A stretch of 64,000 bases of DNA from Thermomicrobiales bacterium (lineage in GTDB: Bacteria > Chloroflexota > Chloroflexia > Thermomicrobiales > UBA6265), in contig JAHBVL010000002.1 in the NCBI GenBank assembly GCA_019637585.1, forward strand, positions 568,023 to 632,022, given 5' to 3'. The notes below the pieces were generated by a model. The model was given only the letters and a program-made list of their open reading frames with translations. It ran no database searches and was not told the DNA's origin. Below, in pieces: positions 22,066 through 25,665 of the stretch. The position numbers were made by a program, and so were the translations under genes. Each line of letters starts with the position of its first letter. Position 1 is the stretch's first letter.

Positions 22066-22925
22066 TGTCCCATCCGGAGGGCAGAACGCCCGATTTGGAT
22101 GCCCGCAGGGTCGCTTCGTCGTTGCGGGCGATCGACGTTCGCCCCTCCAAGGGCCGGGGGCAGAATTTTCTAACGTCTCAAGCTGTGGTCGACCGAATAG
22201 CCGCGCTGACCGGAGCCGGGCGGAACGACACCATTGTGGAAATTGGCCCCGGTCTGGGAGCACTCACCGGAGCGCTGACCGAGCTGGCGGGTCAGGTGAC
22301 CGCGATCGAGATCGACGAGCGCCTCGCGGAGCATCTGATGAGCGCGGATCCTCCCGGCAACCTGTCCGTCGTCACCGGCGATGCGCTGACGTTGCCGGAG
22401 GAGACGTTCGTGCCGGAAAGCGGCGAGTACGTCGTCGCCGCAAACCTCCCCTATTCGGTTGGCGCGGCGATCGTCCGGCGATTTCTCGAACTGGCTCAAC
22501 CGCCCCGCCGCATGGTGGTCATGTTGCAGCGCGAAGTTGCCGAGCGGATGGCTGCCAAACCGGGCGATCTCTCCCTGCTGGGTGTGGCAGTGCAGCTCTA
22601 CGCCCATCCGACCCTGGCCTTTCACGTTCCACCGTCGGCATTCAAACCACGACCCAAAGTCGAATCGACCGTGCTCGTCCTGGAACCGCACGCCCATCCC
22701 CTCCTGGAAGAAGCAGAACGGGCCGCATTCTTCGAGGTGCTGCACGCCGGTTTCCACCAGAAACGCAAACAGCTGGCGAACACGCTCTCCTCGGGGCTCG
22801 ACTTGCCCAAGGCAGCGACCATCGTCTGGCTGGAGGAAAACGGCATCGATCCTACCCGTCGGGCCGAATCACTCTCCGTTGAGGAATGGCTGACCCTCGT
22901 TCGGTCGAGACCCGGTCATGGATGA
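22065..22925 (+). CDS. rsmA: 16S rRNA (adenine1518-N6/adenine1519-N6)-dimethyltransferase
   Basis: A 286-residue RsmA/KsgA, which dimethylates two adjacent adenines in helix 45 of 16S rRNA late in 30S assembly. The SAM pocket IVEIGPGLGALTGAL, acidic AIEIDERL, VTGDAL and catalytic NLPYSVGAA are present, with FKPRPKVEST and GFHQKRKQLANTL in the C-terminal domain. It begins by TAATG overlap with the lipid kinase and overlaps ispE by 8 bases; rsmA-ispE pairing is common in bacteria. Confidence 0.96.
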   Translation: MSHPEGRTPDLDARRVASSLRAIDVRPSKGRGQNFLTSQAVVDRIAALTGAGRNDTIVEIGPGLGALTGALTELAGQVTAIEIDERLAEHLMSADPPGNLSVVTGDALTLPEETFVPESGEYVVAANLPYSVGAAIVRRFLELAQPPRRMVVMLQREVAERMAAKPGDLSLLGVAVQLYAHPTLAFHVPPSAFKPRPKVESTVLVLEPHAHPLLEEAERAAFFEVLHAGFHQKRKQLANTLSSGLDLPKAATIVWLEENGIDPTRRAESLSVEEWLTLVRSRPGHG

Positions 22926-23796
22926 GTCGCGACATCCAGCCGGCGTTGGCCTGTCGCCGGCCAAGGTCAATCTCGGGCTTCACATCCTGGGGAAACGCGC
23001 CGACGGATTCCACGACATCGATACGGTCATGCAAGCGATCACCCTCTTCGACCGGATCGCCATCTATGCGAACGGCTCTGGAACCATATCCAGCACTGAC
23101 TCCGCGTTGAATGGCGAGGGCAACCTCATTGCCAGAGCCGTGCGCGAACTGGCTCAGCGCTGCGGCAAGGAGGTCGATGTCGATTTCCATCTGGACAAGC
23201 GCATCCCGGTCGCTGCCGGTCTGGGAGGCGGGAGCAGCAACGCCGCCACGGCGATCCGTCTGCTGGCAAGGCACTGGAGTCTCGATCCGGACGAACCGGC
23301 CTTGTACGACGCGGCGATCGCGACGGGAAGCGATGTCCCCTTTTTCCTTCGCGGCGGAACGGCGCGGGCCACTGGCCGGGGCGAGATCCTGGATCCCCTT
23401 GCGCCCCGGAGAACAACATGGTTCGTCGTCGTGGTTCCCTCCATGGTCATCGAAGGAAAAACGGCCCGGCTCTATTCCGCGCTGACGCCTGTGGACTTTT
23501 CGATCCCCTCCAGTGCCCATATGAACCTGCACAATGCGTTCGAGCGACCGTTGTACGACAATTTCCCATCGGCGCGGGCTATCCCGGAGGCGCTTCGCTC
23601 GTTGACCACCGCGCCGGTCGCTCTCTCCGGAGCGGGACCGGCCCATTTCGCCGCGATGCCCGATCTGCGGGCCGCAACCGAGTTGCTGGTCAGCGCCCAC
23701 CGGGATGCTCGTTTGGCCGGTTGCCGGATTCATCTGGCGCGATCGATCCCGGGCGCCGCGCCGATTGCCATGATCCGGAACGAACCGGGCGTATGA
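22918..23796 (+). CDS. ispE: 4-diphosphocytidyl-2-C-methyl-D-erythritol kinase
   Basis: A 292-residue GHMP kinase of the MEP isoprenoid pathway. AKVNLGLHILGKRADGFHDI is the family N-terminus, IPVAAGLGGGSSNAATAIRL the ATP-binding glycine loop, GSDVPFF contains the catalytic Asp, and LSGAGPAHFA is the third motif. The ATG lies inside the rsmA 3' end. The extended C-terminus (LARSIPGAAP) is usual. Confidence 0.96.
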   Translation: MDESRHPAGVGLSPAKVNLGLHILGKRADGFHDIDTVMQAITLFDRIAIYANGSGTISSTDSALNGEGNLIARAVRELAQRCGKEVDVDFHLDKRIPVAAGLGGGSSNAATAIRLLARHWSLDPDEPALYDAAIATGSDVPFFLRGGTARATGRGEILDPLAPRRTTWFVVVVPSMVIEGKTARLYSALTPVDFSIPSSAHMNLHNAFERPLYDNFPSARAIPEALRSLTTAPVALSGAGPAHFAAMPDLRAATELLVSAHRDARLAGCRIHLARSIPGAAPIAMIRNEPGV

Positions 23797-23847
23797 GGCG
23801 TTGATGATGCATGATCTGAGAAACGCTCCGGCGAGGGAAAGGATGTC

Positions 23848-24918
23848 ATTCTGAGAACCAACACCGTTCTCAACCGGCGTTACCGTCTGGACAAACGGAC
23901 GCGCGTTTCCCAGGAGAGTGAATCGTTTCTGGCATTCGATGCGCTCCTGCAGCGTTCCGTGACGCTCGAGGTACCCAATCCCACCCGCCAGGCTCCCGAC
24001 ATCTTTGTCTATCGCCGTCAGGTGGCCTCAGCGCTCCATCATCGCAACATCCTGGCCACGCTGGACATCGGAGAGGACGGCGGAACGCCCTACGTCGTTT
24101 CCGAGTACTTTGCCGGCGACACGCTCCGGTCGATCATCAACAGTGAAGCGCCGTTCGACGTCGACGACGTGGCGATTTTGATCGAGCAGCTGGCGCAGGG
24201 ACTCACCTACGCGCACAATCGCGGCATTGTGCACGGATCGCTCTCGCCGGACTCGATCATCGTCGACTCATCTGGTCTGGCCAAAATCACCAGTTTCGGC
24301 ATGATCGAAGGACAAATGGTCAGCGAGTCGGGAAGCCGCGCCGCTCTCCCCCCCGATGCCTACCTTCCACCGAATCTGCGCGGTAATTCCCTGATCACCC
24401 GGGCGCTCGATGTCCATGCCCTCGCCGCTATCGCTTTCGAGATGCTCACCGGCGCCAGACCAGCGCCGGATCAGGGATTCGTTACCCCAACAGTTCTCAA
24501 TCCACAGGTGCCGCCTCGAGCAGGCGATACCATCCTGATCGGATTGCGGGCCTTCGAAGATCGATCCGGATTGACGGCAAACCAGCTCTCGCACGCGCTG
24601 ACCAACTGGCGATCGTGGGCCATGCAGCAATCCCCGACCCGGCCCCATATCCCGCCCGCTTCACACACGTCGGCATTGCCGGCCGCTCCGTTGCCGCCCG
24701 CCTTCAGCTGGCCCGATGCAAGTGAGTCGCCATTGCAGCGCGTTTCGGCGCCTGCCCAGCAACGACCTCCCCTGCTTCGCTGGCTGGCCGCGGGAGTTCT
24801 GGTTCTCGCGATCGCCACGGCTGTCGTGCTCACCCGGACGGGTGATGATGGGGCATTGGCGGGTATTGTCGATATTCCGGCCGAGCTGACGCAGATGATC
24901 AGCGCTCTCTCCAGTTGA
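23848..24918 (+). CDS. Membrane-anchored Ser/Thr pseudokinase
   Basis: A Ser/Thr-kinase-fold protein of about 356 residues that has lost its catalytic residues. The N-lobe starts TNTVLNRRYRLDKR, as in bacterial Hanks kinases, but the VAIK position reads VTLE. The catalytic loop HRDLKPEN reads HGSLSPDS, and DFG reads SFG. ALDVHALAAIAFEMLTG is the usual C-lobe helix. A Pro-rich linker follows, then one TM helix (LLRWLAAGVLVLAIATAVVL) and a short outer tail. No in-frame ATG, GTG or TTG exists before the N-lobe: AAGGA precedes ATT 23848 and CTG 23851, so a rare start codon is proposed. GTG 23959 would delete half the N-lobe. A regulatory or scaffold role is inferred. Confidence 0.75.
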   Translation: MLRTNTVLNRRYRLDKRTRVSQESESFLAFDALLQRSVTLEVPNPTRQAPDIFVYRRQVASALHHRNILATLDIGEDGGTPYVVSEYFAGDTLRSIINSEAPFDVDDVAILIEQLAQGLTYAHNRGIVHGSLSPDSIIVDSSGLAKITSFGMIEGQMVSESGSRAALPPDAYLPPNLRGNSLITRALDVHALAAIAFEMLTGARPAPDQGFVTPTVLNPQVPPRAGDTILIGLRAFEDRSGLTANQLSHALTNWRSWAMQQSPTRPHIPPASHTSALPAAPLPPAFSWPDASESPLQRVSAPAQQRPPLLRWLAAGVLVLAIATAVVLTRTGDDGALAGIVDIPAELTQMISALSS

Positions 24919-24921
24919 TTC

Positions 24922-25665
24922 GTGATCTCGCTCGATCGCCGCAACTTCACCATCGGAGCGGCTGGTCTGGCCAGTGGGCTCCTTCTTGGCGGCGGAGTCT
25001 CGGCGATGCTCCTCCGGGAGGACGGCAAGGCGTCGTTGACCCTGCTCGGCAGCGGTCAGTCGCTCTCGGCATTGATCTCATCCGAACGCGCTCGCGTCGC
25101 TCTGCTGCACGGCACCGATCCCGCTGATTTCGGCAACGCGCTCCGTCAGGCTCGCGTGCCGCTGCTTGCCCACACCGACATCACGCTCGTTCCCGACCCG
25201 GTCAACACCGGTCGCACGTTTATCAGCACTGCGTTGACACAACTGGGCAAAACCAGGGTCTACGTCTCGGGCAATGCAACGCCTCTGCTCGACGCGGGCA
25301 TCGCGGTCGATGAGGTCCTGGTGGCGAAGACATCGATCGCTCTGCCCGGCGATGTGACACTGGAGATCGAAGAACCGGATGAAGCGTCCTGGCGGGCCAG
25401 GCTCACGGCCACCAGTAGCGATGTGGCAATCGTTGTTGGCGACGGGACGTCATCGATCGGGGCCGGGCCTTTTACGGTCTGGGTTCAGCTGCAGGGCGCC
25501 CTTCCAGCCTCCGACCAGTTTGCCGGCAATGGTCCGGAAACGATCGTCATACCGGCGTCGGCGATGAGCGGCGCGGCCGTCCGGGAGTATCAGGACGCGG
25601 CGATCTGGAACCCCACGATCGTGCGAGTCCATGCCGGCGAAGCGAAAAGCATCGACCTGGCTTAG
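24922..25665 (+). CDS. Membrane-anchored protein of unknown function
   Basis: A 247-residue protein. Residues 5-28 (LDRRNFTIGAAGLASGLLLG) form a hydrophobic anchor or Tat-like signal preceded by an Arg pair. The rest looks like a secreted beta-rich domain, with LTLLGSGQSLSALISSERAR, VALLHGTDPADFGNAL and a late ETIVIPASAMSGAAVREY. The order of these blocks is reminiscent of the metallo-beta-lactamase domain of ComEC, but no metal-ligand motif (HxHxDH) is present. The start is GTG 24922, 3 bases after the pseudokinase stop; the two genes are almost certainly co-transcribed and may work as a pair. Its stop region overlaps the convergent CvpA-like gene by 4 bases. Confidence 0.6.
   Translation: MISLDRRNFTIGAAGLASGLLLGGGVSAMLLREDGKASLTLLGSGQSLSALISSERARVALLHGTDPADFGNALRQARVPLLAHTDITLVPDPVNTGRTFISTALTQLGKTRVYVSGNATPLLDAGIAVDEVLVAKTSIALPGDVTLEIEEPDEASWRARLTATSSDVAIVVGDGTSSIGAGPFTVWVQLQGALPASDQFAGNGPETIVIPASAMSGAAVREYQDAAIWNPTIVRVHAGEAKSIDLA

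Follow-up and report, generated by a model that had tools for sequence, protein, structure and literature searches.

The window analysed here, a stretch of 64,000 nucleotides from a Thermomicrobiales genome (assembly GCA_019637585.1, contig JAHBVL010000002.1), carries directly downstream of ispE a gene whose predicted product has the layout of a Hanks-type kinase and lacks the residues of its active site. The locus raises the question of what such a protein descends from, and whether its gene is decaying or is kept for something other than phosphorylation.

The gene and its predicted product

The frame (23848-24918, + strand) comprises 356 amino acids and is open up to the TGA at 24916-24918. 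The initial annotation took the whole of this span as the gene; its frame stands, and its start does not, as 23848 is an in-frame ATT. The ATG at 23843 lies in another frame, and no ATG, GTG or TTG opens the frame upstream of a GTG at 23959, which falls inside the kinase domain. The in-frame CTG at 23851 lines up with the ATG of the orthologue in a second genome (G002) and is probably the likelier start. Residue numbers below are counted from 23848, and the genome holding the window (96.6% complete) is called G000. The features used are as follows.

22918-23796, +: ispE, the syntenic marker immediately upstream (profile match and synteny)
23851-24918, +: pseudokinase gene (PSK), with a likely CTG start placed by alignment with G002, apparently derived from an ispE-linked PASTA kinase
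23878-23880, +: Arg11, retained, matching PknB Arg10, an N-lobe dimer contact (alignment)
23902-23925, +: degenerate glycine loop, residues 19-26, RVSQESES (alignment)
23947-23949, +: Leu34, retained, matching PknB Leu33 (alignment)
23968-23970, +: Glu41 in place of the VAIK Lys, with Thr in G002 and Val in G007 (alignment)
24064-24066, +: Asp73, retained, matching PknB Asp76 (alignment)
24232-24255, +: catalytic loop HGSLSPDS replacing HRDxKPxN (alignment)
24292-24300, +: SFG replacing DFG (alignment)
24409-24411, +: alphaF Asp188, retained (alignment)
24775-24837, +: transmembrane helix, residues about 310-330 (prediction and model)
24838-24915, +: short C-terminal tail, 26-28 amino acids past the transmembrane helix, with a helix at 345-355 (model)
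24922-25665, +: DS protein gene with an N-terminal hydrophobic segment, 3 bases past the PSK stop

Alignment bears out each substitution named in the initial annotation (VAIK Lys to Glu, HRD to HGS, metal Asn to Ser, DFG to SFG), and the loss extends beyond that list to the glycine loop, the alphaC Glu, the catalytic-loop Lys and the APE Glu. The VAIK Lys, HRD Asp and DFG Asp are all missing (E41, S131 and S149): HRD has become His129-Gly130-Ser131, the catalytic-loop Lys is Ser133, the metal Asn is Ser136, DFG reads Ser149-Phe-Gly and the APE Glu is Asn176. The alphaC Glu is Arg56 if the region is read ungapped and is deleted in gapped alignments. Asp188, which we take to be a fold-stabilising residue, is kept. 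Judging from this motif loss and established kinase chemistry, PSK is predicted with near certainty to be catalytically inactive, a conclusion we consider well supported, and residual catalysis would be absent as well.

The Hanks-kinase layout and C-terminal transmembrane helix that had been read by eye were recovered by a Pfam Pkinase match (4.2e-20, residues 58-207), by the helix at about 310-330 and by structure prediction. The closest solved structures by sequence are those of M. tuberculosis PknB (about 1e-22). An AlphaFold2 model, for which the input was 17 divergent kinase-like relatives with canonical motifs in most, has pLDDT block means of 80-98 over residues 1-260, except for 60-68 at 151-170; its best PDB matches in Foldseek are S. 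aureus Stk1 and M. tuberculosis PknA and PknB (4e-15 to 4e-17). Structure prediction, which the initial annotation had proposed as a check, therefore returned a confident kinase fold nearest to these three proteins. Because the kinase model is of high confidence and a syntenic orthologue exists, we regard a chance match as excluded on the predicted structure and the alignments.

The adjacent DS gene encodes an uncharacterised secreted or membrane protein that had no match in Pfam, NCBIfam or PDB profile searches. It finds a match in 18 of 61 genomes, and seven residues (L42, S49, R58, G64, A73, D86 and W157) are invariant in 17 aligned sequences. We rejected the idea that it is a ComEC metallo-beta-lactamase part without metal ligands, which had no profile support in Pfam, NCBIfam or the PDB; the single-sequence fold reached a pLDDT of 35. 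Since its gene lies so close to the PSK stop and its homologues adjoin the kinase in relatives, mostly beside intact kinases, the DS protein is a candidate partner of PSK whose interaction would be phosphorylation-independent.

Descent from an ispE-linked PASTA kinase

We compared the locus across 32 genomes of the family, including G000. An intact orthologue of PSK occurs in 17, in 15 of which it is contiguous with ispE at the same place as PSK; in the two others counted as intact (G019 and G027) it lies on a contig where ispE is not seen. No kinase was found in the stretch fetched past ispE in 9/32 (G001, G003, G006, G010, G020, G021, G023, G026 and G029), a stretch that in G026 and G029 covers 2-3 kb only, and ispE itself was not found in the searches of G008, G013 and G015. 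By NCBIfam, the intact orthologue in G025 is a Stk1-family PASTA kinase (NF033483, 479.8 bits against a cut-off of 450), and the same model is the best one for the G000 and G002 pseudokinases (113.9 and 118.7 bits, below the cut-off).

The nearest protein to PSK among the 32 genomes is that of G002, which belongs to another genus. It is a 369-amino-acid frame with about 40-41% identity, its catalytic signatures are absent (VAVT, HGE, GLG), and both genomes have the gene order selD-ksgA-ispE-pseudokinase-DS-CvpA/zinc ribbon, where in G002 only the zinc-ribbon end of the CvpA gene finds a match and one further gene intervenes. A third dead copy lies past ispE in G007, with VDIV, GGM for HRD, a deletion at DFG and two PASTA domains kept. 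PASTA domains occur in 18 of the 32 genomes, namely the 17 with an intact kinase and G007, and profile searches found none anywhere in G000 or G002; the PSK tail, which is similar to that of G002, occupies the place of the PASTA domains in intact orthologues. The search for the same loss in orthologues that the initial annotation had suggested thus found it in G002, likewise without PASTA domains and in the same synteny. Taken together, PSK is the syntenic orthologue, and appears to be a descendant, of an ispE-linked PASTA Ser/Thr kinase of the Stk1/PknB type, and its lineage is traceable to active-type orthologues that sister genera still carry at this locus.

Two trees bear on how often catalysis was lost. 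In the kinase-domain tree (44 rows, 43 of them different), G000 and G002 are joined at 99/95 and the three pseudokinases at 79/90, the latter with a long-branch warning. The neighbour-gene tree, for which 30 rows were built with many under half filled, leaves out G008, G013, G015, G027, G028 and G030, and G004 was dropped by the program; it pairs G000 with G002 at 100 and groups G007 with the nine kinase-less genomes. This tree rejects a dead state that arose once in a clade made up solely of G000, G002 and G007 (p 4e-54). A single clade of these three plus the nine kinase-less genomes is not (p 0.114), so the tree is compatible with either one or two losses. Because G007 groups with genomes that have no kinase there, the dead state can precede loss of the gene.

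The partner phosphatase and constraint on the frames

In genomes with an intact kinase, a PP2C phosphatase gene sits about 4-5 kb from two FHA genes. At this locus, which is outside the window and was compared in nine genomes, PP2C is intact in seven (G014, G018, G007, G009, G017, G011 and G001). The relatives in G000 and G002 are listed here.

L149 11501-12412: PP2C-like gene of G000, in place and open, with a C-terminal hydrophobic segment
L150 10881-11783: PP2C-like gene of G002, in place and open, with a C-terminal hydrophobic segment

In both proteins the Asp residues of NED, ADGMGG, SDG and TDN, presumably the metal ligands of PP2C, are replaced at all four positions. With Pfam, the G000 copy gives no PP2C match and the G002 copy a sub-threshold PP2C trace (0.0015); the G000 copy still matches Stp1 in NCBIfam, weakly (3.1e-9), and the intact PP2C of G014 reaches 221.5, the cut-off being 230. 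A family-wide search with PP2C_2 gave a match in 29 of the 32 genomes and none in G002, G008 and G015, and the sole match in G000 is a different PP2C, beside ESX-like genes. We therefore read the two proteins as pseudophosphatases of Stp1/PstP-type origin, such that the active sites of kinase and phosphatase were lost in the same two genera. Like the missing ectodomain of PSK, this dead phosphatase outside the window did not figure in the initial annotation. As PP2C is kept in 9/9 genomes without the ispE-linked kinase, absence of that kinase does not by itself account for the loss of PP2C. The FHA domains of G000 and G002 retain the GR, S, H and NG residues, which we take to be the functional motif of the domain. 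Cell-wall synthesis has not been lost, because transpeptidases (4 and 4 in G000 and G002) and MurJ (2 and 2) remain. At L149 and L150, the MFS transporter, LppX/LprAFG lipoprotein and 317-amino-acid genes that lie between FHA and PP2C in relatives have no match.

The initial annotation suggested that the fold had been retained by selection for binding. The alternative is that PSK is a relict in slow decay, Ser/Thr phosphorylation having become dispensable and kinase and phosphatase genes slowly vanishing. Over 334 codons the G000 and G002 pseudokinases are 40.1% identical, with identities of 0.536, 0.629 and 0.335 at codon positions 1, 2 and 3, where the backgrounds are 0.26-0.30. Identity at fourfold sites (23/81) is near background, so synonymous sites are saturated, and under a crude neutral model 0/2000 copies stayed stop-free. 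For the phosphatase relative, the corresponding values are 0.467, 0.544 and 0.390 over 287 codons, with 7/2000 stop-free copies. Of the 94 sites that do not vary among the 17 intact kinases, both pseudokinases keep 33 and both lack 42, and 19 are lost in one; joint loss exceeds independence (42 observed, where 51 and 52 separate losses predict about 28; 6e-9). The jointly lost set includes the catalytic residues and the kept set includes Asp188, Arg11, Leu34 and Asp73.

There is, however, a counterpoint to this constraint, in that the kinase domain evolves fast. The stem of the G000/G002 pseudokinases is 2.45 times that of the species-gene tree and the tips are 1.84 and 1.88 times, against 0.19-1.24 times for 10 intact kinases. 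Branches 1.8-2.5 times those of the species genes show that constraint on the pseudokinases is relaxed, and they fit catalytic loss before the two genera split; part of the conservation between G000 and G002 may be older than that loss. Slow decay also draws on the genomes that group with G007, where no kinase is seen past ispE, on the second kinase of G000, whose VAIK Lys is Arg, and on the G002 copy of that kinase, whose N-lobe is broken. Against it stand frames open in two genera despite saturated synonymous sites, conserved second codon positions, a high-confidence predicted fold, unchanged gene order and the 33 invariant sites kept in both. We consider slow decay unlikely, though not negligible. 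Simple decay of PSK in particular is unlikely on the alignments because the loss is common to G002, synonymous sites are saturated and protein sites are conserved. Intact orthologues do stand at the same place, a finding that the initial annotation would have linked to decay, but with the loss common to G002 and the frame constrained they do not mark PSK as a decaying copy. Its claim that the fold was retained under selection without catalysis agrees with the model, the G002 copy and the codon test; selection for binding may be what this reflects.

A proposed non-catalytic role and known systems

Our best explanation, which we hold with about even confidence, is that PSK acts as an ATP-independent, membrane-anchored dimeric scaffold left over from a former kinase/phosphatase switch. 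The ancestor would have been a PASTA-type Ser/Thr kinase located past ispE. In the G000/G002 lineage it would have given up the PASTA ectodomain together with ATP binding and phosphotransfer, while its fold, its anchoring in the membrane at the C-terminus and the N-lobe contact residues of PknB-type dimers were kept. The metal site of the partner PP2C is gone in these two genera, with the gene retained, and PSK may now hold envelope-control proteins through direct binding; first candidate partners are the retained FHA proteins, the dead phosphatase and the neighbouring DS protein. Dimerisation of PSK is suggested by the matches to PknB Arg10, Leu33 and Asp76 (numbered from the PDB chain in the alignment), which we take to be N-lobe dimer residues: they are kept in all three pseudokinases (G000, G002 and G007), although these are only three residues, picked from knowledge of PknB. 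A kinase of another type in G000 (L001) has His and Ala at the Arg10 and Leu33 positions, and PDB titles among the Foldseek matches name L33D and D76A mutants of PknB. More tentatively, and with somewhat less confidence, the whole Hanks-type pair of PASTA kinase and Stp1-type PP2C may have jointly become a selected pseudokinase and pseudophosphatase with the FHA readers kept, so that the cell-wall switch would now be a stoichiometric, non-catalytic membrane scaffold.

A less probable reading is that another kinase, L001 or the ESX-linked L003, phosphorylates PSK and so makes it a docking site for FhaA, as reported for MviN and FhaA in M. tuberculosis (PMC12599244). In its favour, besides that precedent, both G000 and G002 encode FHA proteins with intact motif residues, and G000 still has kinase-like proteins, with two Pkinase matches above the cut-off, PSK and the 514-amino-acid L001 (G000:C29:277887-278636). 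However, the VAIK motif of L001 reads VALR, where all 6 relatives of its type have Lys, and its G002 orthologue has an N-lobe unreadable in one frame, with no Lys there; the ESX-linked L003 is a weak kinase match only (17.2 bits), and the FHA-linked PP2C is dead. We judge this reading improbable. The motif losses carry no claim that the organism is without Ser/Thr kinase activity. L003 (G000:C12:279096-282665) comprises a WXG100-like small gene followed by a 1239-amino-acid frame, with a PP2C gene just upstream; the region, about 310 kb from PSK, may be an ESX-like locus equipped with a kinase and a phosphatase of its own, a reading for which the kinase match is weak and WXG100 was read by eye.

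Unconventional catalysis of the kind seen in SelO and SidJ, such as AMPylation or glutamylation, seems very improbable: other odd-motif kinase-fold proteins have turned out to be enzymes (PMC12599244), but here the Lys, the glycine loop, the HRD Asp, the Asn and the DFG Asp are gone, and as the replacements differ between G000 and G002 no conserved alternative active site is apparent. We give the least credence to an assembly or binning artefact, for which one could cite draft assemblies, PSK without a standard start codon and G002 frames that are broken in ispE (L034 10336-11159) and the second kinase (L188), possibly through assembly errors, since the same gene and order recur in two separate assemblies with no stop in either frame and the phosphatase shows the matching loss in both genomes.

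Bacterial pseudokinases are already known. A review of their families covers MviN/ActPs3, EssB/YukC, ActPs1, ActPs2, GLW and others, and the string "Chloroflex" is absent from its text (PMC12599244). What would be new is that a likely cognate kinase and phosphatase lost catalysis jointly with both genes kept; in the literature excerpts retrieved on pseudokinases together with pseudophosphatases, PP2C, FHA or PASTA, we found no report of a matched bacterial pair. If true, this would be a natural experiment on what a PASTA-kinase system does without phosphorylation, and it raises the question of why FHA motif residues persist with the main kinase and phosphatase dead.

The initial annotation's comparison with MviN holds as an analogy, not as membership of one family. 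Like MviN/MurJ of M. tuberculosis (ActPs3), PSK is a membrane protein with all three motifs degraded and N-lobe dimer residues kept, in a genome that encodes an FhaA-type protein; in MviN the analogous Leu750 and Asp793 make the dimer contact (PMC12599244). Unlike MviN, PSK is a stand-alone protein of 356 amino acids not fused to MurJ, for which two genes lie elsewhere in G000, and it appears to have arisen in another lineage, from an ispE-linked PASTA kinase, with a phosphatase partner that is dead as well. In type VIIb secretion, EssB/YukC is likewise a membrane pseudokinase without the three motifs and has a scaffold role (PMC12599244), a role that PSK may share, whereas PSK is not at a secretion locus. 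With the PASTA kinases Stk1, PknB, PrkC and StkP (NF033483), PSK has orthology by synteny and sequence, a kinase domain with a C-terminal transmembrane helix and its best family match in common, and it differs in having neither catalytic motifs nor PASTA domains. For the phosphatase, TAB1 is a eukaryotic PP2C pseudophosphatase and PHLPP2 reportedly another. Set beside these two and the phosphatases Stp1, PstP and PrpC, the G000 and G002 proteins keep sequence similarity without the metal ligands; they differ in being bacterial, predicted to be membrane-bound and apparently inactivated together with the partner kinase.
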